From assembly GCA_035236585.1 (NCBI GenBank), contig CP141132.1:48363880-48427879 (forward strand): a stretch of 64,000 nt of DNA, read 5' to 3'. This stretch comes from Warburgia ugandensis. Its lineage: Eukaryota > Streptophyta > Magnoliopsida > Canellales > Canellaceae. A model generated the notes under the pieces. The model did no database searches, had not been told where the DNA came from, and was given only the letters and a program-made list of their open reading frames with translations. The translations under genes were made by a program, and so were the position numbers. Below, piece by piece: positions 1,520 to 52,990 of this stretch. How positions within the stretch are numbered: the stretch's first letter is position 1; each line of letters opens with the position of its first letter.

Positions 1520-4500
1520 TGTAACATCCCTAACTTTTGTAAAGAGATTGAATAAATAATGAAATTGAAAATTTCAAGGAAAATCAAGCTGGAATATTAG
1601 GGTTACTAAAAATGCACTTCTTATAGAAGTTGAATTAATATATAAGACATGTATAATTGAAAACATACTCAACGAACCCTTCAGAATGATTGTAAGTGCG
1701 ACAAATTCTGAGTTTAGATGAAAAATCCTCATTTTTCTCCATTTTTAAGAATAAAAGGGTAAATTGGTAATTTTACTAATCATCGAGACCTAAGATATAA
1801 AAATTTGGAATGTACTCAAAAATACGAATCCAACACCACTAAGTACGCTCAATTTCAAGCTCGGAGAATAAACTAGATTTTTCTCCATAAAAGGCTAAAA
1901 TTGTCTTTTCACAGCTATGTGGGCCCCACAAGAGGCCCACAAAGGGATCCAACTGCCAAAAAACAAATAATCATGAGTCAAACCACTACCAGCTACTAGT
2001 GGAGAAGGAGATGGTAGTGGGAATCCAAAGACAATTTAATAATCAAACGAAATCAAACATGATAATTACATGTAATCATGGAAAATTCCAAAAACCCCTA
2101 TAAATAGCTCATAAAATTGCCAAAAATTCTCTTAATGTTCTTCACAAGGTCCTTAGAATGACCCAAAATCCTAGCTCCAAAAGGCTCCCCCATCTCCCCC
2201 AATTCTTCTTTCTTTTTCTCTTTCTCTCTTATTCTTTGTAGGCATCTCCCTAGACGCACTTGGGCAGATGACCCCATGTCTGCATCAAGCGAGTCCAGGG
2301 ACGTGTCATCCTCAATGAACTAGGGTTTCCACCCAGAAAACCCTAATCCAATTACCCATCACATTCCAACCATTGGAACCAGATATTTACTATCAGATGT
2401 GTTCGGAATAAGGAGATCTACAAAAGCCCTTTAGTTTCATGATGATCTACCTCATGGACCATCGGGAAATCCCAAATGAAGAAACACTTAGGTACTAGTT
2501 ACCAGCTCCGCAGAGTTTTCAAGTTATTCTAGCCAATCTGGCCATTAAATGATGATCTTGCGCTGTTAAATGTCTTCCTTTCATGGTGATCTACCAAAGC
2601 CCTATGGTCCCCCACCTTCTCCGACAATGATAATGGAGAATTTCATGACTGAATGTATTGTCGGCTTCTAGGGTTTCTTATCTCTTTTTCTAATGAAATA
2701 TCTCTCTCTGCGGTGATCTTCACTTCACCAGACCTGCACAGGTAGGTGCACTTTTCTCCCCCTTGTTCATTCTGGCATCTATTAGGTGCTTTTCAGCCTC
2801 TAGAGATCTTCCTCGTTCGTTGATCCATCAAAAATGATGGATCTGACATGGAGGGTTGAGATCTCCTCATTTTTTGGCTTAGATAGAAATTATGAGCCAT
2901 TGGATGAGTTTCTAGGGCCCAAAAACTTTAGGGTAAGAAATCTTAGCCCTTGATGTTTTCTAATTTAGGAGATCTGGAGAAAGGTAGATCCGACAGCCGA
3001 GATTGGACTGTCTCAACTGATCTCAATAGATCAGGTTCCAGCACGTTGGAGACTCCCTGTGGATGGGGCCTTGCACGTGCGCTCATGTGTGAGCTACCAG
3101 GTGGCACGTGAATTAATTAGATCTGAGCCCGGTATGCCCAGATTTGATCTTAGCCGTTCAATTTTGAATTGAGATCTTATACCTTCAATTAAGAGCTCAA
3201 TATAGCTTTGATTTTAGATTTGAAAGCTTCTATAGATTCCTTATCACTTGTTTAAGGTATTGAACTCATGAAATGTATGTTTTAAATTGTATTTATTGGT
3301 TATAATCACAAAAATCGATACTAATAGTATTAGATTGTGATCAAGATTTTAGCTTGTTTTAAGGACCATGATCATAGAAAAATTTTCAGGTTTCTAGATA
3401 AATAAAATTAACAAAAACAATAAGATCAAATTTCAGCCCTTAAAATAGGCTGAAATCTCAAAATCCCAATTCTGATCTCAATTTAACTCCAAATTGAGAT
3501 CAGAAAATTGGGTTGGATTCCTCTTAATGAGGAGAACCTATTGAACCAATAAATTCATAAGTTTAATTCATTAAATGTTCTGAATTTAAGTAGATAAGTG
3601 TATTAACATCCTTAATCTATGAGATCTGGGATGATCAGACCATTCAAACCATACTGGATGATGATATAATAATATACTAACTTAAATAAATGGGTTATAT
3701 GTAATTTAATTGGCAGATCTTAAGCATGGATATATTTGGATGATGATATGAAGATAATATCATATGGATTGATGGACTTGATGATGATGATTTGGGATAG
3801 ATTAAGATCTATGCCCTTAAAATGGATAAAATGACTTGAGAGATCTTTTTGATCGGTTGGATCACAAAGGATCCGATCCTTTGATGAGGTGCATCAATGA
3901 TCTAATGATGAAATCAAATTAAGAAGGTATATTAGATCTAAGGGAAAATGAAAAGATCAAGTTCTAAACCCTAAAAGAGATGAAAAAAGAATAATGACCA
4001 TTGGATCATGATGAATAGTTATGGCATGTTAGATTTCCATTTGAAGTATTAAATGCTATTATAATTATCATTTATTACTTAGTAGATTTAATTGTAGATT
4101 TAATTATTTATGCTTTAATGCTTATGTTATGAAAATTACATTGAAAATGTAATTAAATGAAAATAGAGTTGAAGAACAATTACATGGAATGAATGACATG
4201 GACTTAATGATAGTAAGGGCCATAGTTAGTAGGATAATATAAGGAATATAAATTCCTTGGTCCAAAATAGGAGAATAATGAACCTCCATAAATGACATTT
4301 TAAATGTTCATGGATTTAATTAAAATCAATTAGCAAGAGTAGTTAGGGTTAAAATGCTCATAGGAACCTTATATAAGGTTGGGTTAAGGCCACCCTAGTG
4401 GATGATGAACATGGTAGTTAAGGGGGTTCTCTAAATAGAGCCTCGCTCTTCCCCCACCTTCCTTTGATGTTTGTGAGGTCTAAACACCTCCTTATATGAG

Positions 4501-5660
4501 CATTGAAGTGATCACTTTGTGTTCAACCATTCATCTTGTAAGCCTTAGCGAATTTGGCATAAAAGGAGCTGTCTAGACTTAGGATGGAATAAACTATCCT
4601 CAATCAATAAAACATTAACTGATTGAGTAACAATAAAAAGAGCATAAAAGGTTAATAAATTATCTAATCTTAATAAAATTTGTAAATAAGATAAGGAAGA
4701 TCAAACAAGATCTAAGAGAGATCTTGAAAGATCACAAACAAAAAGAATAGAAATATAATGTAGATTGTAGTATGAGTTTACTTATAGTGTAAATTGTGAA
4801 CTTAGAAGGTTTGAAACCTTGATCATATGTGATTCAAGGAAATTTAGGGCATCCCTCATAGGATAACCCAAATATATGTGGATAGAATACTTGTATAGAG
4901 GAATAACTTTATACGTATGGTTTGACAGATGTATGAATCCATACCATGATGGACAATATGGAGTGAATAACGCTTGAGATGTATGAATCAAGACCATGAT
5001 ACCACTTTGAGGTAGGTGGATGTACAAGAATATATTAAGGATTCAGTTGTATACATACATGATCTTCTATTTAGAATTATAGACCTTCATGATATAAGTA
5101 TACTTGATACCTTAGCATAATAATGATCCAATCACATGATCCAACCCCATGATCCAATTCAACTGATCCAATCTAGTAATCAAATTAAATGAGGTGAAAG
5201 TAATGAGATGTGTAGACTAAGGAAACCCTAAGAATAGGGCATAGAAAATAATCTAGCCTTAGTTAAACAGACACATCGTTTGATATGTACAATATATTTT
5301 ACATACAGGCATGGTGGCTTGTGATTTGGTTTTACACCATCCTGGGACTGGGGATGCTATGCTAAGGAAGTTATGAGGTTTTGGCCACCTGCTTCCTGAA
5401 ACTTATATGATGGATGCCATGCCCAAAGAGAGGCTAAATATCGGGTGGGGCAATCTTGGGAAGGCTGCCACTGTGATAGCCAGGGTTCCCCCCATGTGAA
5501 CCTGGATCTTGTTATTTCCATAGTTGTTATTAGTGCATTATTATGCAGTTATCGGGGTGCACTGTACGGATTAAGACTGCAACATAGTAGTCCTAATGTA
5601 TTTTTCATTATGATGCACTTATGATACGCATACTAAAATGCCATGACATTATGAGATGCT
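1520..5660 (+). mobile_element. Long LTR of a Tekay/Del-like Ty3/gypsy element
   Basis: It begins TGTAACATCCCTAACTTTTG, the same terminus type as the gypsy LTR ending at 42668 on the other strand. The body matches that LTR in reverse: the GGGCCCCACA segment near 1920, the segment with GAGCCTCGCTCTTCCCC near 4440, and the GGCCACCTGC segment near 5390. A TATA box lies at 2099-2106. No primer site or internal domain follows; its far side runs directly into CACTA sequence near 5660, so the outer end is not seen. It is a fossil LTR in plus orientation, probably all that remains of its element. Confidence 0.72.
2099..2106 (+). promoter_or_regulatory. TATA box of the LTR promoter
   Basis: TATAAATA in the context CCCTATAAATAGCTC. 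The related LTRs carry TATAAATA at the equivalent position (42075-42082, minus strand; 47105-47112, plus strand). This would be the U3 promoter for plus-strand transcription. Confidence 0.6.
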
Positions 5661-6060
5661 ACTACATGAGTTCTTGGAAAGAAAATCCCCGCATGAGAAT
5701 AAACCCTATCCAAAATTAGGGTTTGATGGTGACAAATATTTTCATCATGTTGGTTGAGGATGTTGCAATTTGAAGATTTATCATCTCTCTCCACATCTAA
5801 GAGGGTGTGAGCTAACTACCAAGAGGCCAGATCATGATGAAATGGTTCCAAATTAGCTCTTTGATCAAGTTCGATCATGTATTAATGAGATGTAATAATA
5901 TGTAATAGTTCATAAATGTAATAAAAAATATGATAAGTGAGGAGTTATTAAAAAAATACTTGATTTTCTTATTCTTATGTTCATTTTTGTATATATATAT
6001 ATAATGCATGAATCAATGCTGGATTGTATAAAAAATTGGTATGAGTGTGAGTAAGAGAGT

Positions 6061-6500
6061 TTAAAGCTAGTATATATACTTTCAAATTAAAAAATGACTT
6101 TAAAATGAATTTTCAAAGTCAGAAAAAATTACTTTAAAAATATTTTTTTAAATTCATTTTCCAAAACTGACTTTAAAAGTCTATACCTTTAAAGTTGATT
6201 TTAGAAAAAACTTTATAAGTTTATACATTTAAAGTCGTTTGTTGAAAACATTTTTTGTGGGGAAAGATTTTTAACAAAAAAAGTTCTTTTTGCTAAAATA
6301 AAATAGTTACTTTTAAAGTCATTTTTAACAAATGACTTTAAAGGTATAGACTTTTAAATTTATTATTATTTTTTTCTAAAATAGACTTTAAAAGTCACCA
6401 CTTTTAAATTTGGTTTGACACAATGACTTTAAAAGTCCCTATCTTATTTTTGTAGGAAAAACATTTTTTTGTGGTAAAAGATTTTAAAAGTCAATTTTGA
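6061..6500. repeat. CACTA-1 left subterminal repeat array
   Basis: About a dozen copies of ACTTTAAAAGTC-like palindromes and half-sites in both orientations, spaced a few tens of bases apart. CACTA elements characteristically carry such arrays, which bind the element's TNPA-type protein. The same motif recurs at 18190-18430, 52795-52990 and 53880-54270. Confidence 0.75.
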
Positions 6501-6725
6501 TAAATGACTTTTACCACTAAATTTCTCTTTGAGTGGATCTTTTATGTTTTGCATCATTCTTCAATGTTAATTGGAAATTTTCGCATGTGTGCATGTAATT
6601 TTATTTTTTCAAACACTTATATTTCTATATACCTAGTATTTGGTAAAATGCTTAATCGAGTTCATTATAATCTTTTTATGTTTAACAAGTTTTCACACAA
6701 AAATTAGCTTCAATTTGTTAAGAAA

Positions 6726-7142
6726 ATGGACAAATATGTTTGGATGACCACAACATGAACAAGAAAAGAAAATGAGGGAGGAACATAAAAGTTCATAGAG
6801 TTTGTATTTAGGGGAGGCGATGATAGTAATCACATACATTGTTCGTGCTCAAAATGTAAAAACTTGAAAAAGGAAACTTTAGAGGTATTAAGAGAACAAT
6901 TGTGCTGCAATGAAGTCAATGAAAGCTATCACCCATGGATTTGGCATAGAGAAGAACTTCCACATTGGCCTTTGACATGGGCTTCTAAATTGGGTTTTGA
7001 TTATTGGGCACACATGATGAGAACCTAAGCATGAAAGCTATCGCCCATGGATTTGGCATGGAGAAGAACTTCCACAAAAGCCTTTGACAAGGGCTTCTAA
7101 ATTGGGTTTTGATTATTGGAAACATATATCACATTGCATACA
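6726..7142 (+). pseudogene. TNP2 N-terminal exon (Transpos_assoc domain), broken
   Basis: Translation from the ATG at 6726 begins MDKYVWM and continues through a CSCSKCKN segment and YHPWIWHREE. This is the order found in the Transposase-associated domain at the start of plant En/Spm TNP2 transposases: an initial MDKSWM-like start, a C-x-C-x2-C zinc-binding cluster, then Y-x2-W-x2-HGE. Two in-frame stops lie in the first 30 codons. The last part is a direct tandem duplication of 112 bp: 6919-7030 repeats at 7031-7142, starting ATGAAAGCTATC both times. The catalytic part of TNP2 that should follow is not recognisable; a solo LTR begins at 7304. Confidence 0.75.
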
Positions 7143-7303
7143 CATTAAGATAGCCTATACTGCATGACCTTTAGGCTACCATCGATCTGACATGGCTCTT
7201 AAGAGAAAAAAATTCAATAAATATAATAAAAAATAAGAAAAATATGGCTCAAATCAAATGAGTAAGCTCACTCATATTTGACAAGTCCATCATATGACAC
7301 CTC

Positions 7304-9498
7304 TGGTGTAACTTTAAAATTATTCACAAGTGCATGAACGAAAGTAGTATTGCATGCGAGAGAGGTCAAATCCACAAGGAATCTCACAAATTTGTAAGTT
7401 GGATGGATCTTATTTAAAGTGCTCAACTTCAGCCAAAGAGAGAGATCAAAGGAATTTAATTCAAACTAGGAAAGTAATTGCAAGAAATTAGAAACTATAA
7501 TTAAAGGAAACTTGCTTAAAATATAATTAATGGAATTAGAAACTAGCCTAACTAACATGCACTTAAAAAAAGAAACTAATGCAAAATAAGCAGGAATTAA
7601 ACTAAGCAACTAACTTCAGGAAACTTTAAAAGGACACTTTCCTAAACAAGAAATTTTCTAAAGTTAAACTTTCTAAACTTAAACCAAGATGCAAACAACT
7701 AATTAAAATTTTCCAAAACAATATTAAACAACTAAATTAAAAAAAAATCAAAATTAATTAATCCAATGTTCCATGTGCATGATCCATGGGTCCAAAGATG
7801 ACTAGATTTGATGCTTTAAATGTAAACCAACATCCAACCTAAATTATGTTCTTAATAAATAGCCTAAAATTCTAAATGAATTCCTAAGGATTCAAGCAAA
7901 TAAGATGTTTTGATGGTTGGAAATAAAGCATAAAGGTTAAGGAGAATTTTTTTTATAGATTCTAAGTACTTAAGAACATCAACTTAAATCAAGCATATAA
8001 AAGAACTGAAACAATAACTTTTATCTAAGATAACAACCTAGATCTGAAGTACTTTGATAATAGAAACATTCAATAATAAGAATCCTCAAAGAATTTCATT
8101 AAATCAATGTGTAGAACTAGAAAACATAACAATGGGAAACTAAGGCAATGAAAGTAAAGCAATAAAATAAACTACTAACTTGAATTAGAGACAAAATAAC
8201 TAGAAGAAAATAGTACCAAAGAAAACCAAAGTCCAAGCTCTAAGAAGATTGCAATGTTTTAAGGTTGTCTCCCCTAACCTCTACTTGGGTGAAAACATGG
8301 AATCCATGGATATTTATAGATGAATTGTTGTCACTTTGAATGAGGCACATTCTAAGAAGAGAAAGTGGATCTAGATCTAGGGTTTCAAGCTAGATAAGTT
8401 AGGTAGAGAGTTAAGGAGGAAAGTTAGGTGGAAGATGAGGGTGAGTGACTATGTAATGAAGATGACATGATTGCATTCTAATTTGAGAAGAGGGGGGGGG
8501 GGGGGGGGGTGGATTTTCTTAGGAAGGTCGGTGGAATTCCACCCCCCTAATTAGGTCGTTAATTGAGGTTGGAATGGAGAGAGAAAAAGAAAAATACAAG
8601 GAAAATTTAGGATTTTGATATCCTTTGATGAAGATAGATCTAGGGGTTTCCTAATTAGGAAACCACCTTAATAAGCATTCAAACAAGGGGGAGGTGACTT
8701 CATAGAAGGTGGCTCCCTCTCTAAGGTAAAATCGTGGGACCCTAAGATGGATAGGGGAAAAAGAATGGGAAATTGAATTGGAAAGTGGGATTTTCTCTCT
8801 TAATGGTTCCACCAATGCATGATCATCTTACCTTATACAAATATCTCTCAAAATCCCTTGAAAATCATACTTTTAATGTAGGATAGTTGCTTGAATTGGT
8901 GCTCCAATCGTGTGGCTTCATGTTCCATTCATCCATGGCTTGATGGCTTACTTTGATGGCTCATTCCTTGGTGGCTTAGGTGGCTTCCATGCTTGTCTTC
9001 AAGGTTTAATTAGCTTGGCTTCCTTGGGCTTCCTAGTTAGACTAGGAAACCTCATGCATGGCTCCAATTCTTATGCAATGTGGTGGAAATGCATGACTTT
9101 TTGCATGGATCATTTTAATCACCTTTGTTTTCTTCCAATTTCTTCTGTGGGCTTTGCCCCTACACCCTTGCTAGGGACGCCCCACGTCTTGCACCCCCGG
9201 TGAGCTAACCACATAGCTTGACCATGAAAAACTATGCGAAGCACAACATAGGTGATTAAATCATCTTCTCACTTCCTAAAAAAGAGTAAAAACCCTAATT
9301 AAATCCAATAAAATTATGATGATTCACATACTTACTCTAGATTTGCTTTTGAACCTGCAAAATATTTAAACTTTTGAATTATTGGGTTAGAAATGCATGT
9401 GTTATAAATTTCTAAAAAAACCTTAGAAATAACACTATATTTTATAACACATGGCCTATTAATTGGGTATTTTTTTATTCAAAATTAAACACTTATCA
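7304..9498 (-). mobile_element. Solo LTR, Athila/Tat-like family, inside CACTA-1
   Basis: On the minus strand it starts TGATAAGTGTTTAATTTTG and ends at 7304 with a sequence resembling the ends of the LTRs at 30495 and 55720. The flanks are ACCTC (7299-7303) and ATCTC (9499-9503), a target duplication with one mismatch. There is no primer site or internal domain beside it, so it fits a solo LTR formed by LTR-LTR recombination. It contains an 18-base G run. The small open frame at 8910-9203 is LTR sequence, not a gene. Confidence 0.75.
8492..8509. repeat. Homopolymer run of 18 G
   Basis: An uninterrupted G run inside the solo LTR, preceded by GAAGA and followed by TGG. No other comparable G or C homopolymer occurs in the window. 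It could be real slippage or an assembly artefact. Confidence 0.85.
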
Positions 9499-9804
9499 AT
9501 CTCAGCCAAAAAAGAAATATGCATGTAAGAATACACCCTTTGAGACCCTTAGTAGGAGTATCATAAAAGATTAGCTTTTGCAAGCCCCTCATCAATTAAC
9601 TTTGAGATGGAAGCTCAAGCTCCACTCTTCCTTAAGCCCATGTTAATTGATTTTATTCACAAAACTATATGTATCTAATATCCATTTGTTTTTTATCCTT
9701 CTTTTTAAGTTAACTTTACATGTTCTTTCTATGTTTTGTTATAATGATTTGGTTAGTTAAATTCTCTTGTATGTGGTATGTACTCTAGACATATAGGTTT
9801 TCTG

Positions 9805-10107
9805 AAGTTTTTAGTGGGAGACACAATCGACATAGCAATCCTCAAAGATCCACATGGAAAATCATGGGAGGGGAAGATCAAGGGAGGCATTGATGGTGCT
9901 TTCTTCCAAGATGGTTAGAATTTGTAAAATACTATGATCTAGGTGTTAATGAAGTTGTAGTGTTTAAATACTAAGGAAATGCGGTGTTTGAGGTGGTAGT
10001 AATTGGTAGAGGTTCATACAAGAAAGTGTTTCCTCATCTTCTTAAAAATGGATATTTCAAGCGAAGAAAAACCAAGCATGCATATATTGATCATTTGAAT
10101 ATAAATA
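9805..10107 (+). pseudogene. Captured B3 DNA-binding domain exon, copy 1
   Basis: The frame through 9830-9920 reads FLVGDTIDIAI, then DPHGKSWEGKIKGG and IDGAFFQDG. A second frame continues EFVKYYDLGVNEVVVFKY, then GN and FEVVVIGR. This is the core of a plant B3 domain, whose family text is typically W-x-V-K-L, FF-x-GW-x-EFVK, LVFKY-GN and F-x-V. Compared with copy 2, four bases are missing next to the GW position, causing the frame change. A TAA at 9972-9974 follows FKY. The exon ends at a splice donor GTAAGT (10108-10113). B3 is not part of the En/Spm transposition machinery, so I infer capture of a host REM-like transcription-factor fragment. It is dead. Confidence 0.72.
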
Positions 10108-10132
10108 GTAAGTTCTCTTGATTTTGCTTTTA

Positions 10133-10342
10133 TTCCAAGAAGGTTGGTAAGAATTTGTAAAAGACTATGATCTTGGTGTAAATGAAGTTGTAGCATTCAA
10201 ATACTAAGGAAATTTGGTGTTTGAGGTGGTGGTAATTGGTAGAGATCCAAGGAACAAAGTGTTTCCTCATCTTCTTGGAAAAAATGGAAATTTCAAGCAA
10301 AGAAAACCAAGCATGGCTAAATTGGTCATTTGAAGGCAAACA
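10133..10342 (+). pseudogene. Captured B3 domain exon, copy 2 (tandem duplicate)
   Basis: It repeats copy 1 with a 229-bp offset (9904 to 10133), including the donor site, here GTAAGT at 10343-10348, and the start of the following intron. The frame reads FQEGW, then EFVKDYDLGVNEVVAFKY, then GNLVFEVVVIGRD. It carries the same TAA after FKY (10205-10207) as copy 1, so that stop predates the duplication. A further TAA (10148-10150) replaces the residue after GW. The N-terminal half of the domain is absent. It lies just upstream of the TNP2 DUF4216 end in the same orientation. Confidence 0.72.
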
Positions 10343-10399
10343 GTAAGTTCTCTTTATTTTGCTTTGGTAATAGTTCACTTAAGATTTGTCTCTGTATCT

Positions 10400-10761
10400 T
10401 TGATTTGTGGAGTTTTTGACTTTTCATTAGATGACATGGTTCATGGCTGTAAAGAGCTACAACTGGTGCCCTTGGATTGGCATTTGTTGACCTCAACAAG
10501 ATCAATCATAAAAATGATCAATTTATTTTGGCATCTCAAGAAAAACGTGTATTTTATGTGCAAGATGGACATGATAAAGGATGATCAACTATTTTATCAT
10601 CCCGTCTGAGGGATTTTTATGATAAAGACAACTTAAGTGATACTATAATAGATTTTCATTATATTATCAATACAATTCCATGAATTGATGTAGTTGGTGA
10701 GAATGAGGATTATATACATGATAATGGTGAGGAGGGTGCTTGGGTTGTCAACAATATATGA
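10400..10761 (+). pseudogene. TNP2-linked DUF4216 / C-terminal exon, broken
   Basis: Around 10486-10570 the translation reads VDLNK, then NDQFILASQEKRVFYVQDG and GWSTILSS. This matches the DUF4216 wording found at the C-terminal side of plant En/Spm TNP2 proteins (V-N-x-N, D-P-F-V-L-A-S-Q-A-x-Q-V-F-Y-V-x-D). The last piece, from 10690, reads VGENEDYIHDNGEEGAWVV and ends in NNI with a TGA at 10759-10761. Equivalent text occurs in CACTA-2 at 53405-53620. Frame changes separate the blocks. Confidence 0.75.
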
Positions 10762-11543
10762 CATGTACTAGATTTCCATTCAAAAATTCTGGATTAGAAA
10801 CTATCAAAAAATAGAAACTACAATACAAGTTAGGAAAGTGCTAAACATACAAAACTAAATGATGAATGGATATTAAGCCATGGACAAAGTGTATGATGTT
10901 TGAAAGAACTAATTAAACATGCAAAATCTTTCCATGCTTTGGTTAAAATGTTAATTAAGTGTCTGTTGGTTCAATGTTATCACATTGTTTAGAGAAAGGA
11001 GTTAGATCCATAGAATTTCATTGTTTAGTGGAACTTCCTTCTTGAATTGGAAAGGAGCATGATTTTTCTTTAGGTTTTTAGGATTTGGAACACATCCTTA
11101 TCATCAATCATCAATCATCTGGATCTTGATTTTGATTCGTTTGTGTGGAAGAGGTAAGGTCACTAGTTTTTCATTCTATTGTATGCTTTTACATTATATC
11201 CATAAAATGTTTACATAACTACATATGTAGGTAATTTCTTCAAATATATATACTTATTTTAGTTAGATTAGAAAATCAAAGTGAATAGTTGATGTCTATG
11301 TCATGGTTTCCATTTATATACCATTGTAAATTCATCAACTAGTGCCACCTTTGTACTAAAGAAAGCAAGTTACTTATGTTTTGTTCCACTTTTATTTTCT
11401 TCAAATGCATTACATGGACTATTTGATTTCATTGTTCTAATATCATTATATTCTTGTTTACAATAAATATGAAACATGAACAATATCAAAATGAAGAAGA
11501 TGAACAATGTCAAGAGCATGAACAAGAGGCCAACCTTAACGAC

Positions 11544-14151
11544 TGTGACGACCTGGGTTTTCTCATGCATTTTTAAATGCAATACCTAATTTCTTAAGGC
11601 AGGATGCATCCCTATTTGAAAACCATTCTATAAAAAACATGCAATGCAGCGTAAAACCTTTAGCTTTAAACTCATTTTTGAAAACCCCGAGTGTCATTTG
11701 CCTTCACAACAACCAAAGTAGTTTTTTGAAAAACTTCAAAAATCATAAATATTTTTCCCTAGGTCTATCCAGTCACAGCACACAGCCCAACTGTAATTAA
11801 ATACAAATACATGTCCAAAGGGTTGAGAGTTTACTTACATATATAACTGTCTCCTTTTTAATTCACTTGCTCGTAGCACTAATATCTCTTGAGGCATTGT
11901 TTATTTGTGAGTGGAACTATCCTGAAAAATGTTAAGGATAGGGTGAGTATATACTATACTCAGTAGGAGTCTATCACTACTAGTTTTATAATGCATGCGA
12001 TGTTTTAAAATCATATGCTCTTTCCAAAACATGTGCATGTCTGAATACTCAAGTTCAATATCGACATCAAAATCCATTGTCAAACTGAAATATTAACGAC
12101 TTAAAGGATCATATAATCCAAAATTTAAAGTATCATATACATATATATCATAACATCATGATATGCATAAGATGCTTCATGGAATCCAACTCATGGATAT
12201 CTAGTATGGTATGGTTGACCAACCTCATATCATGCCATAATGCACATAAATCATCAAACCATAGGGTCCACTATGCCCACGACCTCCTCGCCGTATGGTC
12301 CCTGGGTACCTAAGGACACTCGGTCATAGCCTCCACGGGGCCTATGACACATCAACCCAGTGCCGTGACACCAGTGGTAGCCCCCTGTACCACATGCAGT
12401 TGACGTAGGGACTTGCCTCTTTTTGGGCATGGTACCCATCCACCTAATAGTGGTAGAGGCCGGGTGGCCAACCCAGACCCCTCGGCATAGCACCCACGGG
12501 CTTTCTAGCCCAAATCTCATAAGATCAAATAAGCCAAAACCTCTTTTCAAAACTGTCCTCTTTTGGGTCCCTCACAACTGCCTGGCCCTCGGCACTCCAG
12601 CGTCTTTTGGCAACCCTCAAGGACATGCAATCTTTGCAAGTACTTAAATCATGCAATGTATGTACTTGTTTGCAAAACATATATGTGCATAATATATATG
12701 CAATCATTCACAAAACATGTCTATGTACAAAGAATTTATCACCTGCATGCTGAATTAAGTCATGCTAAACAAGTCATATACTTAAAACATATGTTCTCAA
12801 AACAATAATAGTTCTTTTAAAAGAATCTAATAGTGATAGAGTACCTACCTGGCTAGGTCGCGCTAACCCTTTTGTCCTCGGACGCTCCTGATCATGGTTT
12901 GGGGAATCAATGTTAGTTTGGCCTATATTTTATAGGTTTTAGAGTAATTGGTCTTTTTACTTAGGCATTAGGGGTCTATCCCTATGCCTATGGGTGTCCT
13001 AAGGTCCTAATTGGGCCTTGGTATTCTCAGTTTTCCAACGTTCTAGTGGCCACGTGCCACCATCCTATTCTAAGGGTCATGCCTACCTTTGATTGGGCCT
13101 TTATTAGGGATTTTATAGTTTGGATGTGTCCACGTCGTCGACACGGACACAACGCCTTTTGTGGCGCCTCAATCAGAGCTCTAGATCTCAAGTTATAAGC
13201 ATTTTAGTGTCGTATGTACATAGAGTCTTAAGAATGAAAAAAATGGAATGCTAGGGCGCTGCACGACTGCATCTTGCACCCTGGCTTCCTTAAGGAACGA
13301 AAAGAACCCACAGTGCTAGCGCACTACGCGTCTGCGGCGTGCGCCTCAGTGGGTGTGTCTGCAGATGCGTGTTACTCTCCGCTCGTCTTCCTCTTTAGCG
13401 GGCGCGTCCGTTGGTTTCCTCTCAGACGTGTTTCAGACGTTGGGGGACCGGGGCATCCTTGGGATGCCCTGGTTTGTCGCTGAGGAACCAGTGCAGCCCT
13501 GGGACATCCCAGGGTCCTTGGTGACTCCCTAGAGGCCTATGCCCCATGGATTTTCATGCAAAAACCTAGGGAAACTGAGCCTAGGACTATGGGTGAGATG
13601 GGTTTGGGGAGTTTTTGGGCGTACCTGCTTCGTGGCTGGTTTTCTCTCCATGTTTTCTCCTCTTGGTCACTGCTCCTCAATAGTTTTTCTTCAACGTTTT
13701 GGGCTGCCATTAGAGGCGCCCAAGAGCTCTATTTATAGAGCTAAGAGAGGGTTCTGGAGGGGGCTCTCACCGCCTTTGAATGGCAGTGGAGAAACCTCCA
13801 GAATGGGGGTGATTTCCCCTCCAATCACTGCCATTCTAGAACTCTCTAGGAGGTGGAAGATGAAGGGTGCCCGTATCAAAACGGGCCCCTGTGTTTTGCA
13901 GTTAAATCCTTTTTGTGAAAATTACAGTTTTGCCCCTGAACTTCAAGGGCCATAACTTGCTTATTTTAACTCCGTTTTGGGTGATTTTGGTCTTGTTGGA
14001 TTCCTTTTTCCAAGACGCATCTAATGGTACCATTTTTAGGACCAAGTTTCTGGGTTCAGTCAAGGTGACTAGTGAAATGACTAAAATGCCCTTATCTTTA
14101 AAACTGAACTTTTCATGGGATTTTAATATTACAAAAATTGGGTTCATTACA
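11544..14151 (-). mobile_element. Solo LTR of family X (Tekay/Del-like), copy 1
   Basis: On the plus strand it begins TGTGACGACCTGGGTTTTC and ends with GGGTTCATTACA, so read on the minus strand it runs TGTAATGAACCC to GGTCGTCACA. The flanks are ACGAC (11539-11543) and ACAAC (14152-14156), a 5-bp target duplication with one mismatch. It matches 46687-49473 in reverse and the element starting at 62353 in the same direction. A GC-rich block (about 13260-13520) lies downstream of a TATA box at 13730-13737 in the LTR's own direction. It splits a CACTA-1 coding region. Open frames inside it, such as 13539-13955, are LTR text. Confidence 0.82.
13730..13737 (-). promoter_or_regulatory. TATA box of LTR family X, copy 1
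   Basis: TATTTATA on the plus strand, TATAAATA on the minus strand, within a short palindrome GAGCTCTATTTATAGAGC. The same context occurs in copy 2 at 47105-47112. Confidence 0.6.
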
Positions 14152-15910
14152 ACAACACTTGAAAGAGAAAGGCTAGAGGGTGAACAAAGATGGAAAAGGT
14201 TGTTAAGAGAAAGTCGAATGGAATTAAAGAAATTGTCCAATACAACAATAGGGGGTAAGAGATAGTTGAGAGTTGTCTTATGGCAGTATTTTCTACTCCA
14301 CAATAAGAAGCACGGTGTCTTTCACATTTGACTATTGTAGACGCATGCCATCAATAATAAAAGATTCAATATGAGAGATGGTGAAGGTATATAAAAATAT
14401 TATATATTATATAATTTATAACATACCTTATCTTCTTATTTTCAAATATAGTAATGTACTTTGTACTTTGTAGACTACCTTTGAGATACTTGAGCACAAG
14501 AAGACACTTGCTTTGTAAGGAGCTGGTAAGCAATGGAGAAAATGGAAGAACTACCTTGTTTTCGATCATGTTGCTCCATATGTCAATGATCCATAGAGGC
14601 TATATACAGTGCCTGCATTTATTTTGACATCATTGACCAGGATGTATGGAATGCATGTGTAAAGGATCACATGTCCTTTGAATTTGAGGTATGTGCCAAA
14701 ATAGTGTTTCATTTAATTAATTATAACATTTGATTATTACACTTGATTACATACATAAAAATGTACAAGCAAGGAATGTGAGAGGAAGAAAGGTGATGAA
14801 ACTAATATACAACATCACCTTTCTAAGTTGGGCTATATGCCCATTTAGAAGAACGCTAAGTAAGTATCTATGATAGTTTATTATTTTTAAATTATACTGT
14901 ATTTGTATGCATTTTATTACCTAATGCCTTGCTTGATAGCAAAAGAAAGATGGAGCTATGGATTCGATTGACCACACCATCCTTTAGAAGATGGCACATT
15001 CAATGGACTGTAATGCCAAACATTTACAAATGAAGCTACTGCACAAGTTGCTTCTCTCATTCGAAGTGGTTCCACTTATCTGCCCTTGATTGCTTTTAAT
15101 GTTATAAAATTAAATAAATGAACTGATCATGTCCTTCTAATTAAATTTTACAAAATATTCTTACCCAAGAAAGCATGTGTATAGGAACTCTAAGCAACAT
15201 TGCTGCAATGATTACATCCTATATAGGGCTATGGACAAGAAGGATCACCCTAGTCGAGTAAGGGGCATAGGGTATGGCATTTTTCCTTTCAATTTTTTTG
15301 GTAAAAAGTACCTAAAATTGACGATTCGGAGGCCTATAATGAGTTGTGTAAGAAGATAAAAATGGATATACTTAACTAGTTGCATGAAGGAGGTTTAATG
15401 ATAGTTTTTCATTCCCTTGTACCTAATTCTCATTTTGCCCCCACACCTCTGTCAAATGTTAGCTGCAATTCCTATAGAATAAGTTCATGAAGTAAAACTT
15501 ATGCCCTTCGAAAGAGAAATTTCAACCAAGGAGGTATATACATAGACACTAAAACTTTTTCGGTCTCTTGTAATTCTCATATCTCAACATCTTTAATGTA
15601 TGATGTATTTCTGATTTGTAGGTGGGTCAATGCCTATTGGACTTGGATACATGTCAAAACTTCCTCGCAGTTGGTTCATGCTCATAGCATAAATCAACGA
15701 TTTTTGCATGGAATTAGTATGCCTCCACATACTAAGTGTGTGTCCATTCCTAAGGCTTTGAATGTGAATGGTACCCTACCATTTCCTTTTGAAATGGAAA
15801 ATACTATAACCGTTGGCCAGGTAGTTGCATATCACATTGCTTGGGTGAAAGCACTTGTCATTCCCATGGAATCCATGTTATATATCTTTTCATACTACCT
15901 TCCTCAATAA
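14152..15910 (+). pseudogene. En/Spm TNPA-like gene (Transposase_24), broken
   Basis: Several exon-like blocks match plant transposase (Ptta/En/Spm, Transposase_24) proteins in order. A charged stretch LERERLEGEQRWKRLLRES lies at 14160-14260. YNHRLSRKGY-like text, here HHLSKLGYMPI, is near 14810-14850. DHPSRVRGIGYGIFP is at 15245-15290; families usually have HPGRVRGVGxGVTP. From about 15700 comes FLHGISMPP, and around 15750-15850 LPFPFEMENTITVGQVVAYH followed by IAWVKALVIP, matching the VPVPxxxExITTVGDAVGxFVAWPKHLI tail. In the element family this protein binds the subterminal repeats. The solo LTR at 11544-14151 separates this part from a charged stretch ending at 11543. Stops and frame changes are present. 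Confidence 0.72.
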
Positions 15911-16139
15911 TAATTTTATAAAGTCCTGAATTTAATTGTTTATTAACTGCATATAAGGTTAATAAGTAGTAGAAAATGTCATCAAGGTCGTCCACTGCTA
16001 CACCTTCAGCTACCATTGTACCAATGGAATAGGTACTAGTATCTTTGTTTATTTTTCATCATAAAATTGAATGTCTTCGTTGATCAACATTAATTGACTA
16101 AAATCTCTACAACTTATACAACAACCATTTAAGGGTTGC

Positions 16140-17075
16140 ATGGAAGTCCCAACTAACACGCCTCAATCCCAAAGTTTATTCTACAGATTCATCAATGAAG
16201 ATAAGGCAATCAGCCCTGTACGGATCAAGGAAGGAGTGCTTGTCGATCTCATTGTTGAAGTGCCATGGGATCAACCCAAGCACTCTCACATTGTCTTTTA
16301 CCTAGGGTATATGCAAATATACACTTATAAAATACTTCAAATTACATATTGTTTTTTCATTGTAGGTAATAATGATTTCTTTTATGCAGCTTCTTGAATG
16401 ATTGAAAGAGCCTTTTCATTGGATGATGCTTGTTTTGGATGTGCATAGTGGTCATGCTTTCTTTTTTGATTCTTGTGGATCGTATATCCATCCCGCCCTT
16501 GTAGAAATCATAAATAATTAAGATTTTAGTCTTTTTATGTATTATGTATACGTAAGTTACTTTTCATCTATATGTAATGCATTTAAAATTTAAACTTGTA
16601 GAGTATGGTTAATGTCATCTAATGTGATTGAGACTGTGCAACCACAGAAACTCATTTGAAATAATGTTAAGGTATTGAAAATAGTTAATCACTTTATTTA
16701 TAACTAATTAAACTTATAATATTACAAATAGTATTTATCCATCCTTTTTGTTTTTCTTGTTGCACAATGTCCTAGATAACAGTTTGATTGGGGTTGCAGG
16801 TATTATGTTCAGAGATATATGAGGGCCTTAGGTGTTGACATGTCCTAATTAAGAAATGTAAGACACATTTTACTAATCATAATCTTATATTTTCACAATA
16901 TTTTTTTATTATCAATTTTAGCTCAAAAACATGTGTAAACTAAATTAAATATGTTGTATTGTAGATTGCTGTGTCTTCTGAGTGGGAAAATAAGAAGAGT
17001 TACTCCAAAGTAAACCTTAACAAAATATGTAGTGAATGGGTTGAGTACGTAATGAGTTTCAATCAGAACAATTGA
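16140..17075 (+). pseudogene. Ulp1-like cysteine peptidase (C48) gene in CACTA-1
   Basis: The exon at about 16390-16520 reads EPFHWMMLVLDVHSGHAFF then FDSCG. It contains HW (codons 16417-16422) and the D of FFDS (16468-16470), which match the catalytic His and Asp regions of Peptidase_C48. The exon at about 16780-16857 reads QFDWGC, then RYYVQRYMRALGV, matching the Q...CGYYVMRYM signature with Cys at 16795-16797. A donor GTAAGA (16858) and an acceptor TTGTAG (ending 16964) bound an intron. The last exon, 16965-17075, reads YSKVNLNKICSEWVEYVM and ends in TGA. The upstream exon (16140-16400) is weakly recognisable. Such peptidases are known passengers or components of plant CACTA and Mutator elements. 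Stops in the first exons suggest it is dead, though the catalytic exons are well kept. Confidence 0.75.
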
Positions 17076-17130
17076 AGTAACTATGTGAATGCAAATTACC
17101 TTATCCATAATAAATATTCTTTTTATTAAT

Positions 17131-18000
17131 ATGCATGCGTTCTTCTAGTTTTCATTATTTTCATTGAAGTATATATATTTTATGGGATGAATGAGGGGAA
17201 CTTGGAGTGTAGAAGTAAATGGGTATGTGTCTATGGACTTGTAAATGAAGTGAATGTGGATGTTGCATTTTCATTGATATGCATTTGTTCATCTAGTTTT
17301 TATTATTTTCATTGAAGTATATATATTTTATGGGATGAATGAGAGGAACTTGGAGTGAGTAAGTAACTTGTAAATAAAGTGAATGCTGATGTTGCATTTT
17401 CATTGATATGCATGTGTTCTTCTAGCTTTCATTTTTTGTAGTGAAGTATATATTTTATGCGATGAATGAGGGGAACTTGTAGTGTGGAAGTAAATGGGTA
17501 TGTGTGTATAGACTTGTAAATGAAGTGAGTGTGGAGGTTGCATTTTCATTGATATGCATGTATTCTTCTAATTTTCATTATTTTCATTTAAGTATGTATA
17601 TATTTTATGAGATAAATGAGGGAAACCTAGAGTATGGAAGTAAATGGGTATGTCTATATAGACTTGTAAATGAAATGAATGTGGAGCTTGCATTTTCTTA
17701 ATATGCATGTGTTCTTCTAGTTTTCATTATTTAAATTGAAGTATATATATTTTATAAGATGATGAATAAGGGGAGCATGGAGTGTGAAAGTACATGCATA
17801 TGTGTATGAACTTGTAAATGAAGTAAATATGTAGGTTGTACTATTTTCATAATATGCTTGTGTTTTTCTAGTTTTCATTATTTCCATTGAAGTATATATA
17901 TTTTATGGGATGATGAATGTTGGAAACTTGGATTATGAAAGTAAATGGGTATGTGTGTGTGGACTTATAAATGAAGTAAATGTGGAAATTGCAATGAATG
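17131..18000. repeat. 148-bp tandem repeat array, about six units
   Basis: The phrase ATGCATGTGTTCTTCTAG and its variants recurs at about 17131, 17279, 17407, 17555, 17702 and 17853. Spacing is near 148 bp, with one shorter unit of about 128 bp. Each unit contains GAAGTATATATATTTTATG, then GGAACTTGGAGT-like text, then AAATGGGTATGTGT and CTTGTAAATGAAGT. It starts just after the peptidase stop and precedes the right subterminal repeats, so it is 3'-end sequence of CACTA-1. Confidence 0.85.
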
Positions 18001-18189: not shown

Positions 18190-18440
18190 AAGAAATAAAA
18201 AGGAACTTTTAAAGTTGGTTTTTGAATTCTGACTTTAAAGGTTCCTGGAATTCTAACTTGGTGTTTTAGGCTTTTAAAGTCAGTTACGAAACGATTTTAT
18301 AAGTCTAACTTTTGAAGTTACTTTTTTTTTCTAACTTTTTTCTTACTTATTTTCCAAATCATCTTGATATAAATCTGTTCTTAGCCAACTTTTATTAGTG
18401 TTTATAGCTAACTTCAAAAGCTTCCTATGAAGAAGTGATG
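18190..18440. repeat. CACTA-1 right subterminal repeats
   Basis: Repeated CTTTTAAAGTTGG, GACTTTAAAGG, TTTTAAAGTCAG and similar motifs match the left array at 6061-6500. They are sparser than on the left. TAGTG at 18474-18478 may be the element's right terminus. Confidence 0.65.
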
Positions 18441-42699: not shown

Positions 42700-43795
42700 A
42701 AATTTGTAATACAATACTTAATCAAACAAACTAGGGTGTGACTTCCTCATTTCCCACGTGGCTTCCGTTTCCCACGTGGCCGTCCATACAATGCTTCATA
42801 TGGTGTCGTACCAATACTTGCTTGAAAACTGTTGTTATATGCAAATTCTACTAAAGGAAGATGTTCATCCCAACTCCCTTTCCAATATAATGCACATGCT
42901 CTCAACATATCTTCTAAGGTTTGAATAGTCCTTTCTGATTGACCATCTGTTTGGGGTGAAATGCTATACTGAACTTAAGTGAGGTTCCTAAGACTTGTTG
43001 TACACTCTTCCAACATCTTGAAGTAAATCTTCCATCCCTATCAGAGATAATGGATAGTGGAATCCCATGAAGACTTATTATTTCTTTGATGTATATCTTA
43101 GCTAGACTGTCAACTGATTGGTTCTGTCTAATTGGAAGGAAATGTGCTGACTTTGTTAGCCTATCCATGTCATGGCCTGCTTGAGTCCTTGGCAATCCCA
43201 CTACAAAATCCATAGTGATATTGTCCCATTTCCATTATGGAAGTTGCAATGTTTGTAACATTCCAGCTGGTCTTTGGTGTTCAGCCTTTACTTGTTGACA
43301 ATTTAGACATTTAGCCACAAATTCTCCTATTTCTCTCTTCATGCCTTCCCACCAAAAGTTTCTTTTCAAATCCTGATACATCTTTGTACCTCCAGGGTGT
43401 ATAGAAAACTTTGATTGATGGGCTTCTTGTATCAGTTTCTTTCTCAAACATGTATTTGAAGGAACCACCAATCTCTCTTGAAAACGTATACCCCCATCTA
43501 TACCCTTAATAAATCCCTTCTTTTTACATAACTCCTGAGTTGTTGTATCTTCTTCTTGGGCTTTAAGGACTCTCTCTACAAAAGTTGATTTAATTGTGAT
43601 GTTTGTGAGTAGAGCTCTTGGTTGTCTACTTAATGCATCAGCTACTACATTTGCTTTTCCAAGATGGTATTGGATGGCAAAATTGTAGTCTTTGATATAC
43701 TCTATCCATCTTCTTTGTCTCATGTTCAAATCAGCCTCAGTAAAGCTGTATTTAAGACTTTTATGATTTTGTGAATACATTGAACTTTTCCCCAT
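42700..43795 (-). pseudogene. Integrase region of the Tekay/Del-like element
   Basis: Minus-strand blocks include an H2C2 zinc-binding segment ([17 protein letters not shown], then [14 protein letters not shown]) at about 43260-43420. Core-domain text follows (MDFVVGLPRTQ, then LHGIPLSIISDRDGRFTSRCW) at about 42960-43210. Both are typical Ty3/gypsy integrase wording. The end of the preceding RNase H domain ([15 protein letters not shown]) lies at about 43630-43680. Short text near 42740-42790 resembles the end of a chromodomain tail. It is a fossil, broken in several places. Confidence 0.88.
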
Positions 43796-43808
43796 ACAAA
43801 TAATGTCT

Positions 43809-45118
43809 CTAAATTTTCAATGCTAAAACTACAGCTGCCAAGTCTAGGTCATGTACTGGGTAATTTATTTCATGTTTCTTCAATTGTCCAGATGCACAAG
43901 CAATGACCTTCTCATTTTGCATTAACACTCCCCCTAGCCCTTTGCCTGAAGCATCACAATATATTTCATATCCTCCATTCCCATTAGGCAAAGTCAATAC
44001 TGGTGCTGTAGTTAACCTCTTCTTTAGCTCTTGAAAACCATTTTCACATTCTTCTGTCCAAGTGAATTGTACCCCCTTTCTTGTCAAGGATGTCAAAGGA
44101 AGAGCCATACGAGAGAACCCTTGAATGAATCTATGGTAGTATCCTGCTAGTCCAAGAAAACTACGTATTTCTGTTACTGTTTTAGGTTTCTCCCAATTCA
44201 TTACTACTTCAATCTTGCTGGGGTCCACTTCTACTCCATTCTTGGAAATTACATGACCCAAGAAACTGACCTTCTCTAACCAGAATTCACACTTACTAAA
44301 TTTACCAAATAGTTTATGTGTTCTGAGGGTACTTAGTACAATTTTTAAGTGTTCTTGATGTTCTTTGATATTGCACAAATTTATCCAAAAATTCTTTGAA
44401 GATTCTATTCATCAAATCCATAAACACTACTAGTGCATTGGTCAGCCCAAAAGACATGACTAGAAACTCGTAATGCCCATATCATGTTCTGAATGCTAAC
44501 TTAGGTATGTCTTCATCCTTAATACACAATTGATGATATCTTGATCTAAGGTAAATTTTGGAAAAGACCTTAGTAGATTGGAGTTGATCAAAGAGATCAT
44601 CCATGCGAGGTAAGGGATACCTATTCTTCACTGTGACACTATTCAACATTCTATAATCAATGCATAATCTCATAGACCCATCCTTCTTCTTCACAAATAT
44701 TACTGGGTGCCTCCCATGGTGAACTACTTGGTATAACAAACCCCTTGTCTAACAATTCCTGCAATTGACCCTTCAACTCTTGCAACTCTGCTGGGGCCAT
44801 CCTATAAGGTGCTTTAGAAATTGGAGTTATACCAGGAATTACTTCAATGGTAAACTCAATGTCTCTATGTGGGGGTAACCCTTGTAGCTCTTCAGAAAAA
44901 ACATCTTGGAATTCCCCGACTACAATTTCTGTTATCCTGGGCTGTTGAACATGTAAGGAAATCACTGTTGCTAGAAATGCCTGACACCCCTTGGACATAT
45001 GTTTGACTGCCTCCATAGCTGAGATGATGGATTTGTTTAAGTCATTGTGTTTCCCATACAATACTAATACTTTCTCTCCTGGTATACTAAATGTGATTTT
45101 CTTCTTGTGACAGTCCAT
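43809..45118 (-). pseudogene. Reverse transcriptase and RNase H region
   Basis: Separate minus-strand blocks carry Ty3/gypsy reverse transcriptase text: APYRMAPAELQELKGQLQEL and [10 protein letters not shown] at about 44730-44830, [20 protein letters not shown] at about 44620-44680, and [18 protein letters not shown] at about 44200-44280. RNase H follows with [18 protein letters not shown] at about 43915-43975. Order and wording match the chromovirus (Tekay/Del) group. It lies between protease and integrase as expected, and is a fossil with multiple breaks. Confidence 0.9.
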
Positions 45119-45124
45119 AACTAC

Positions 45125-45420
45125 CTAGTATTTTGCTAGCCAGTCCATACCCAATATGATGTCAAAATCCACCATTTTCAATAAAATGAGGTCTATGTCC
45201 ATTCTTTTGCCCAATACGTCTATAGGTACATTATGTAAGTATTCTTGCAATTTAACTATTTTTCCCACTAGAGTTGTTACATCTAGATCAAATCCCAAGT
45301 TTTTCACTGATAGTTGTATATTAGATGCAAACTCGCAAGATATAAAGGAATGCGTAGATCCAGAATCAAATAATACTTTGGCATAGTTGTCTGCTACAAG
45401 TAGTGTACTTCAATCACCAC
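45125..45420 (-). pseudogene. Aspartic protease region
   Basis: The minus strand has DSGSTHSFIS near 45330-45365, the retropepsin active-site text of plant gypsy elements, followed by MDIDLILLKMVDFDIILGMDWL at 45125-45200, the usual end of the domain. It would cut the Gag-Pol polyprotein. Fossil. Confidence 0.85.
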
Positions 45421-45469
45421 ATTAGACGATCCAGCTTGGCCATCAGTGATGGTGAAGACCCTTCCTTGG

Positions 45470-46392
45470 TGTCGAGGGGCAATTTCTAGTTTTGCCTCCT
45501 TGACCGCCAATGGTTTGGTACAGTAGGTGGTGACATGTCCATACTCCCCACAATTATGGTACTTGATTGGAAACCATTGTGGTTGGTGTTGTATAGGTCG
45601 AGAGTAGATATTGCCTTGATGAAATTTTCTACATCTTGGACATGGCTGTCTATTTTGCCTTGGTGCATTGTTCCTCTAATTTCTTTGAGGCTTAAAATTG
45701 TTCAAAGGTCTTTTATTCTTCTAGAACAGCCTTGGGTTATTGTTTCCTCCTCCACTGAACTTGGTAATTTGACCCTTTTTGTATTCTTCTTTAAACTTGG
45801 AGGCCATTTCCACATAGTCTACTAAGGTGGTGGGTTTAGTTCCTAGCACCTTTATTTTCAGCCCTGGGTGCAGCCCCTCATTGAATCGATTCACGGTGTG
45901 TGTTTTTGTGTTACACACATGAGTCGCGAATCTCCTTAATTATGTGAACTTGTTATCATAGTCCACCACCGACATATTCCCTTGCCTTAGGCCCAAAAAC
46001 TCTATCAACTTCCTTTCTTGTACATGAGAAGGAAAATATTTATGGTTAAATACTTCCTTAAATTCCTCCCATGTAATATCTTCAGAATTTGAGAAGAAGG
46101 TGTTGTTAGCTGATCTCCACCAAAATGCAGCTTCTTGTTTGAATAAGTATGTGGCAAATTTCACCTTCAACTCTGGAGGAGTACGTAGTGCACTAAAAGT
46201 CTTTTCTACTTCATATATCCATTCCTCAGCCTTCTCAGCTTCACCCTTGCCATTATACACTAGTCATTTTTTGAAATCTCTCCATCATTTTGTCAACTTT
46301 TTTTGGTGCTAATGGGGATTTTCCTACTTCTTCACCTGGTACAAGGGAAGATTTCCCTTGTGCTGGTGTAGTAGTAGCTAGTGTTGGTGTAG
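45470..46392 (-). pseudogene. Gag core and zinc-knuckle region
   Basis: Minus-strand blocks read AEEWIYEVEKTFSALRTPPE, then KFATYLFKQEAAFWW, TWEEFKEVFNHKYFP and FLGLRQGNMSV at 45940-46260, the Retrotrans_gag domain. A knuckle-like segment NCGEYGHVTTYC lies near 45525-45560. It would form the particle core. The region is cut at 46392 by a later LTR insertion; the gag start lies on the other side at 49474-49681. Fossil. Confidence 0.88.
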
Positions 46393-47104
46393 TGTAATGA
46401 CCCCAATTTTTAGCTGGTGTTAGAGGCAAAATAAGCTAACTTGAGATGACATGAGATAAGACCTTGAGTGAGATTATTTAAGCTGGATAAAGATGACTTA
46501 AATCCGGCATGAGATAAAATGGATGTGACTAAAAGTATCACTTAAGTTAGAGTAACATGAGTTGAAAGAGATAGTTGAGATGACATGATATAAAAGTAAA
46601 ATACAAGGTGTTGTTGAGTTGAATAAATGATTCTCTTTACTGAGGCTAGGGATGAGATGAGATTGCTTGAGATGGAGGTGATATGCTGTAATGACCCCAA
46701 TTTTTGTAATATTAAAAGCCCATAAAAAGTTCAGTTTTAAAGATAAGGGCATTTTGGTCATTTCACTAGTCTCCTTGACTAAACCCAGGAATTTGGTACT
46801 AAAAGTGGTTCCATTAGATGCGTCTCAGAAAAAGGAATCCAACGAGACCAAAATCACCCAAAACAGAGTTAAAATGAGCAAGATATGGCCCTTTGAAGTT
46901 CAGGGGCAAAACTGTAAATTTTACAAAAACAACTTAACCTGAAAAACACAGGTGCCCATTTTGATATGGGCACCCCGTCGTCTTCAACCTCCTAAAGGTT
47001 TTTGGAATGGTGGTGCTTCAAGAGGAAACCACCGCCATTCCAGAGGATTCCCCATCGCCATTCAAAGGTGGTTAGAACCCCTCCAGAACCCTCTTTAAAA
47101 GCCC

Positions 47105-47112
47105 TATAAATA
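47105..47112 (+). promoter_or_regulatory. TATA box of LTR family X, copy 2
   Basis: TATAAATA in GCCCTATAAATAGAGCTC, about 420 bp into the LTR. A GC-rich block follows 280-500 bp downstream. Confidence 0.6.
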
Positions 47113-48433: not shown

Positions 48434-48481
48434 TGACAGGCTTCTAGGCTGGCAGGCTTCTAGGTTGTCAGGATTCTAGGC
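48434..48481. repeat. 16-bp minisatellite, three units
   Basis: Units TGACAGGCTTCTAGGC, TGGCAGGCTTCTAGGT and TGTCAGGATTCTAGGC. The same repeat with four units is in copy 3 (63206-63270). It is absent from copy 1. Confidence 0.85.
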
Positions 48482-52283: not shown

Positions 52284-52794
52284 ATAAGTGCGTTAGATCA
52301 TTATGGTTTCGCCAAAAATCATATGATTTCATTACAAACAAGAACTGCTTCTCACTCTACACCTCACTATTGGAGAAAGGGAAACATTATGATTTGTGGT
52401 TCCCATCCAAAATTAGGGTTTAATGAAGTAAAACAATACCATCAAGTTGGCTAAGGAAGTTGAATTTTAAGGCTTTACCTTCTCTGCCTCCTTAAGCGGT
52501 GTCAGTTAAATACTAGGAGGCTAGATTTTGATGAAATCATTTTAGATTAGCTCTTTGATCATGATCTTGTATTAATAAGATATAATAATATGGAGCATTT
52601 GATATATGTAATAAAATGATGATAAATAAGGATTTATTTCAAAAAATACTTTGATTTCCTTATTCTTGTGTTTGTTTACATATATACGTGTGTGCATGTG
52701 TACAAAGAATGCATGAATCAATGCTGACTATCATAAAAAGTCAGTTTCATTGTGTACCCATGTAAGATATTGTAAAGTACTGAAATAAAATATA

Positions 52795-52990
52795 TTAGTT
52801 TTTAAAGTTGTTGAAAAAATGATTTTAAAAATAATGCCTTTTAAAGTTGCTTGAAGAGAGCAACAATAAAAATGGTGCCTTTACTTTGGTGCAAAGCAAT
52901 TTTTTTTGGGGGGGTAATGTCTTTTAAAGTCATAGAAAATAACTTTAAAAGTATAGACTTTTAAAGTTGTTTTCTAGAAATGACTTTAAA
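52795..52990. repeat. CACTA-2 left subterminal repeats
   Basis: TTTTAAAGTTG, CTTTTAAAGTC and ACTTTAAAAGT motifs as in CACTA-1. Confidence 0.65.

Follow-up and report, generated by a model that had tools for sequence, protein, structure and literature searches.

A host REM-like B3 gene fragment in a TNP2-derived unit of a decayed CACTA family of Warburgia ugandensis: probable capture, tandem duplication and decay

Introduction

How does an exon encoding a B3 DNA-binding domain come to lie, in two direct copies, beside the transposase remnant of a CACTA (En/Spm) element, and did it ever serve the element there? We examined this in a stretch of 64,000 nucleotides from Warburgia ugandensis (hereinafter the window), situated in G000:C7 (assembly of 1.12 Gb in 14 contigs). 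The original prediction for this locus held that a CACTA element had captured genomic DNA of a B3 gene together with its intron, and that the exon was then duplicated in tandem. We consider it very probable that this CACTA family has, besides ordinary TNP2 units, a second unit derived from TNP2, with the 5′ part of a REM-like B3 gene of the host in place of the catalytic core. The window is a heavily decayed member of the family: its B3 copies are unable to make a protein and the transposase core was not found in it.

Results

Pieces of a CACTA element in the window

A six-frame Pfam scan of positions 3001-17999 (E 0.1) matched PF13963, PF02362 and PF13952 alone; Transposase_21 was not found in this interval. 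The TNP2 protein domains among these are the transposase-associated domain (TAD; PF13963), with a profile match spanning 6741-6953, and DUF4216 (PF13952), with a below-cut-off match at 10477-10578 that covers profile positions 34-67 of 73. The B3 piece lies just upstream of the latter, as had been predicted. The features recognized are the following.

5705-6034 (+): R segment of the CACTA family; matches 52402-52739, and in other copies lies after DUF4216 and before the array
6071-6540 (+): subterminal-type repeat array (GACTTTWAAAGT motifs), from motif positions
6726-7128 (+): TAD (PF13963), with stops (E 9.5e-10 and 3.5e-11)
7304-9498 (strand unassigned): nested repeat, TG...CA, with target duplication ACCTC/ATCTC (one mismatch)
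9608-9670 (+): REM exon 1 with ATG (MEAQAPLFLKPMLIDFIHK...); aligns to At1g16640, and the same exon is present in other copies
9671-9796 (+): putative REM intron 1; candidate donor at 9671, candidate acceptor AG ending at 9796
9797-10107 (+): REM exon 2 with the B3 domain, copy 1; 4-base deletion before EFVK, TAA at 9972-9974
10108-10130 (+): beginning of intron 2 of copy 1, truncated at the duplication junction; exon and intron have TGCTTT in common
10118-10365 (+): second, partial copy of exon 2 with the intron start, from the tandem duplication; similar junction in L009 and L010
10343-10430 (+): REM intron 2, 88 bp, GTAAGT...CATTAG
10431-10460 (+): start of REM exon 3, from alignment with other copies; the left end of the next part is approximate
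10461-10760 (+): TNP2 3′ end with the DUF4216 (PF13952) remnant, from the profile match and other copies
11469-11543 (+): start of a candidate second CACTA gene (ORF2), from an empty-site reading; without Pfam match
11544-14151: solo LTR that cuts the candidate ORF2; target copies ACGAC/ACAAC (one mismatch)
14152-16850 (+): presumed rest of the candidate ORF2, with a weak Ulp1-like (PF02902) match near 16411
18204-18320 (+): small distal array of the same repeat motif

The Ulp1-like match is below the cut-off (E 0.041 and 0.1), and Pfam searches of the candidate ORF2 returned, beside it, weak unrelated names and nothing else. The same CACTA family left another remnant at 52402-54265, which has DUF4218 and DUF4216; a scan of the 52.8-54.3 kb part of that remnant in the three plus-strand frames gave no B3 match. 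Consensus CACTA ends occur 18 times in the window against 24 expected by chance, and searches for end pairs with target duplications, together with inverted-end alignment, gave no convincing CACTA...TAGTG pair with 3-bp duplications in the window or in the other copies, the latter being partly in view.

Other repeats of the window were noted alongside. The TAD exon is itself duplicated in tandem (6919-7015 and 7031-7127, a 112-bp step, 91% identical), and an array of ~150-bp tandem repeats at 17120-17993 stands just ahead of the distal subterminal motifs. The solo LTR has relatives at 46684-49473 and 62685-64000. On the minus strand, a 225-bp tandem repeat (2.9 copies at 99%; 54719-55369) lies inside an open frame of 289 aa, and remains of a retrotransposon polyprotein, judged by eye from open frames, span 42917-46263.

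A REM-like gene fragment with its introns

Searches of both copies with PF02362 matched, in agreement with the predicted B3 identity; the single copies stay under the Pfam cut-off (E 2.4e-5 for copy 2 and 0.0033 for copy 1), whereas exon 1 and exon 2 in a joined reading, made by hand with X placed at stops, reach 44 bits where the cut-off is 30.1. The only PDB match of weight is At1g16640 (E 8.8e-5 with exon 1 and 0.0025 without it), which we take to be a REM protein; a PDB search with a single frame alone gave no match. The ATG of exon 1, at 9608, lies upstream of the interval considered in the original prediction, and copy 1 as the beginning of the B3 fragment is thereby ruled out. In another copy, L017, exon 1 reads MEAHTPHFFKPMLDDFVHK. 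The 3′ end of this exon is uncertain, with GTATCT at 9671 as the candidate donor. The cargo extends from exon 1 to a part of exon 3 and includes two introns, with the exon borders placed by inference; its position between TAD and DUF4216 supports the proposed capture, introns included, inside a CACTA element. The window is missing ~300 bp after the start of exon 3 that other copies carry, and neither of its B3 copies has an intact reading frame, on account of a frameshift and stops.

A protein search of the genome found six B3 places beyond the copies examined, and no near-identical parent gene. The best of them, at C12:6.58 Mb, has 73% DNA identity over 192 bp and one stop; within 2.4 kb there we saw no convincing CACTA piece (a TAD-like match of 7 residues, E 0.055, and a 15-bp match, E 0.007). 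Another, at C5:84.59 Mb, is open over 215 aa with 38% amino acid identity. With no near-identical parent found, either the capture dates far back or the parent has been lost or overlooked. A B3 scan of viral contigs gave no match.

Tandem duplication of the end of exon 2

The end of exon 2 is present as a direct tandem repeat, aligned as 9890-10130 and 10118-10365, with the two aligned stretches overlapping by 13 bp at the junction. The duplication, splice donor included, is borne out both by self-blastn of the window (E 9.25e-71) and by pairwise alignment of the copies (210 of 240 aligned bases identical, 9 gap columns, K2P 0.137). The two direct copies of the original prediction are therefore real, but not the spacing of 229 bp quoted for them: start to start, three pieces give 233, 235 and 236 bp. 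Likewise, FEVVVIGR reads in both copies as claimed, but the EFVKDYDLGVNEVV ascribed to both is exact only in copy 2; copy 1 has EFVKYYDLGVNEVV in its place, directly behind the 4-base deletion that breaks the frame ahead of EFVK. Each copy does have the expected GTAAGT donor (ATA|GTAAGT at 10108 and ACA|GTAAGT at 10343), and each the TAA after FKY (at 10205-10207 in copy 2). The junction falls inside TGCTTT, a string common to exon and intron, in keeping with a tandem duplication of the microhomology type in genomic DNA, which would be the mechanism suggested by the junction sequence.

The full 591-bp query with the duplication matched two other loci, one on C1 and one on C4, with junctions alike; the tandem duplication is present in these and in the window, three loci in all. 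We aligned exon 2 in 16 rows (L021-L024 excluded) and built a tree from 13 of them, omitting L016, L017 and L019 because they end early. The tree is star-like with most branches unsupported; within it the second copy of C1 groups with that of C4 (support 84), and that of the window falls outside the pair. The three duplication loci likely descend from one shared event that was blurred later. GTAAGT is kept in 8 of the 13 rows that reach the donor.

The TAA common to both copies had been taken as a sign that the fragment was already dead, or read differently, before it was duplicated. This dating of its death does not hold. The codon is a stop in 6 of 15 ungapped rows, namely both copies of the window, both of C1 and the single-copy loci L018 and L020, and reads CAA in both C4 copies as well as in the host relative L056. 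Since both copies of one duplication locus lack the stop and two single-copy loci carry it, the shared stop is no proof of prior death; C-to-T changes that arose more than once, or conversion, would account for it.

Copies of the hybrid unit across the genome

Genome searches with 9790-10380 gave at least 18 matches, the window included, and those with a longer unit at least 30 rows, several rows per locus. From the former we took 16 loci beyond the window and examined all of them for CACTA pieces. B3 exon 2 is present over 100 bp or more in 13 of the 16 (contigs C1, C4, C5, C6, C7, C9, C12, C13 and C14), the R/array segment (5700-6720) in 13, the array proper (GACTTTWAAAGT arrays) in 12, TAD in 11 and DUF4216 in 11 (in L010 by a 59-bp match only); TAD and DUF4216 occur together in seven. 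Some piece of the same CACTA family is found in 15 of the 16, counting L010 with its 59 bp only, so the same cargo is indeed carried by further CACTA copies. L010, a duplication locus, has neither array nor TAD. The sole locus without a CACTA piece, L023, nevertheless holds B3 pieces: two exon pieces (4875-4954 and 5086-5165) lie 211 bp apart, and its 9.9 kb show no CACTA piece. Seven additional loci, taken from the search with the longer unit and matching mainly the 5′ part (L042, L044, L046, L048, L049, L051 and L052) all have CACTA pieces, and in four of them (L046, L049, L051 and L052) the REM piece stands ahead of an array and TAD, as if units were in tandem. L044 has exon 1 joined directly to DUF4216, with exon 2 missing (1245-1565). 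In L046 the REM fragment's pieces of exon 1 and intron 1 occur as two tandem copies (1558-1902), so that tandem duplication in the cargo may have recurred.

The recurring order is array, TAD, REM fragment and DUF4216, and in the five copies inspected TAD and B3 are ~300 bp apart with the nested repeat absent. We aligned eight copies beyond intron 2. Five of these (L012, L013, L014, L015 and L020) run from exon 3 through a linker and a GACTTTAAAAGT-type motif, exact in three copies and altered in two, into TNP2 sequence; in the window, L009 and L010 the stretch from exon 3 to the TNP2 sequence is lost.

Three loci, L009, L017 and L019, were picked for an upstream scan because blast showed a second TNP2 piece (DUF4216 or TAD) in them. 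In each, TNP2 domains were found upstream of the B3 unit and on the same strand: Transposase_21 (PF02992, 3.9e-42), DUF4218 (PF13960) and DUF4216 (PF13952) in L017; TAD, Transposase_21 (7.3e-30) and DUF4218 in L019; and DUF4218 with DUF4216 in L009, where Transposase_21 was found neither in the upstream scan nor in the next 4 kb. Where the TNP2 remnants of these three loci and of the window (52.8-54.3 kb) were scanned, B3 was not matched. Past DUF4216 in L012 and L014, the stretches searched gave no family match. In five loci that we aligned, the spacers behind TNP2 units and behind B3 units are homologous. Genome-wide, a first look returned 5074 Transposase_21 candidates (150 of them scored), by which the B3 units look like a small minority.

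Proposed origin of the hybrid unit: probable coding past, decay and alternative histories

To what is observed directly (identity, order of the pieces, copy number, duplication and decay) we add the following history. A TNP2-derived unit without catalytic core would have acquired some two and a half exons from a REM-like gene, whose 5′ part thus taken up is made up of exon 1, intron 1, exon 2, intron 2 and part of exon 3; this capture is itself a step that we infer. The resulting hybrid unit (array, TAD, REM fragment, subterminal motif, DUF4216 and R) would have spread, most likely by transposition, since copies that show this order completely or partially lie on nine of the 14 contigs. In one lineage the microhomology-type duplication at TGCTTT would have doubled the last part of exon 2 along with its donor, and the copies would then have decayed. 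Telling against this history are the failure to find convincing element ends or a near-identical donor gene, the B3 pieces of L023 with no CACTA piece beside them, the 59-bp match of L010, and the mostly unsupported tree.

TNPA is the DNA-binding partner of the transposase in En/Spm, and a REM-like B3 protein, perhaps joined to the TNP2 ends, might have been such a partner, the unit being an active accessory gene. When each locus enters with a single row (13 rows), the column majority of exon 2 shows 0 stops if read in the right frame and 8 in each of the two others, by which the spread probably began from coding sequence; with all 16 rows it has 1 stop in the exon frame, and every one of the 16 rows holds 1-5 stops. 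Letters shared by at least two copies lean to third positions (25, 30 and 42 at the three codon positions, versus 83, 73 and 65 for singletons), which would speak for such a gene at the p of 0.035 obtained in the first alignment (16 rows), but over four alignments the contrast ranges from 0.035 to 0.064 with 16 rows and from 0.09 to 0.16 with one row per locus; it stays weak and we claim no constraint from it. The two window copies differ at 6/64 first, 8/63 second and 11/62 third positions (p 0.38). At the 3′ side, L013 (5152-5460, oriented with B3 as plus) can be read without a stop from REM exon 3 on into the 3′ end of TNP2, in the phase set by exon 2, as an accessory gene would have it, whereas the same patch from exon 3 to DUF4216 has stops in L012, L014 and L020, and the column majority of the TAD in the B3 units contains 4 stops. 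We read the changes in the B3 units as mostly neutral decay and keep a working past at a low probability; the accessory gene is accordingly an improbable reading. Its extension to a two-gene system, in which swapping the core of a duplicated TNP2 unit for the host B3 would have given a TAD-B3-DUF4216 hybrid as a new DNA-binding partner, is to our minds just as improbable.

Were the B3 piece not CACTA cargo but a REM pseudogene beside CACTA pieces, in a locus multiplied by segmental duplication, old and broken copies for which intact element ends were not found would be unsurprising; the same order of pieces on several contigs with differing nested insertions, the star-like tree, and the subterminal motif that separates exon 3 from the TNP2 3′ end all argue against this, and we give it a very slim chance. 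The piece might otherwise have been brought in by the nested repeat at 7304-9498, which in the window stops ~110 bp ahead of exon 1. Five copies inspected have the B3 piece together with an empty site for the repeat, which refutes the repeat as its carrier and leaves the idea with next to no probability.

Discussion

Relationship to known capture systems

CACTA elements with captured fragments are already described (PMC8978399, PMC1947982, PMC2528002, PMC8903248, PMC13317346), and the introns of CACTA transposases have been treated as well (PMC4158355); the comparisons made here concern the parts of these texts available to us. In a literature search, no title reporting B3 capture by a CACTA element appeared among the matches listed, a result that refers to titles only and to a set with subscription papers mostly outside it.

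The Chenopodium CACTA (PMC8978399), one of the closest known systems, resembles the present family in its architecture of TAD, Transposase_21, DUF4218 and DUF4216, in a captured transcription-factor fragment (there AP2), in a Peptidase_C48 in ORF2, and in captured tandem repeats in the 3′ region; there, however, the captured pieces lie upstream of ORF1, whereas here the piece replaces the core of a second TNP2-derived unit. Soybean Tgm-Express1 (PMC1947982) is likewise a CACTA element with host gene fragments whose exon/intron borders are used, but its fragments are five unrelated ones, and the available text describes neither a REM gene nor a TNP2-derived hybrid unit. Grapevine Cactavine (PMC2528002) shares captured host sequence and ULP domains, and shows no B3 cargo in the available text ("B3 DNA" occurs 0 times in the main text). 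The Pack-CACTA/Pack-TYPE elements (PMC8903248, PMC13317346) offer a likeness in process, namely capture via neighbouring insertions and re-mobilisation, and the subterminal motif at the 3′ junction of our fragment would fit a scar of such insertion and re-mobilisation. They differ in having been found by their ends and in being non-autonomous, whereas here the ends were not found and some copies have a tandem TNP2 remnant.

The Warburgia family offers a multi-copy, alignable record of one capture, in which the 3′ junction, the introns, the later duplication and the decay can be ordered; and with a host DNA-binding domain in the core position of TNP2, beside an ordinary TNP2 remnant, the use of such a cargo by the element becomes testable. 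Set against these systems, gene capture by CACTA elements is a known process, and the cargo and the paired units are the new part.
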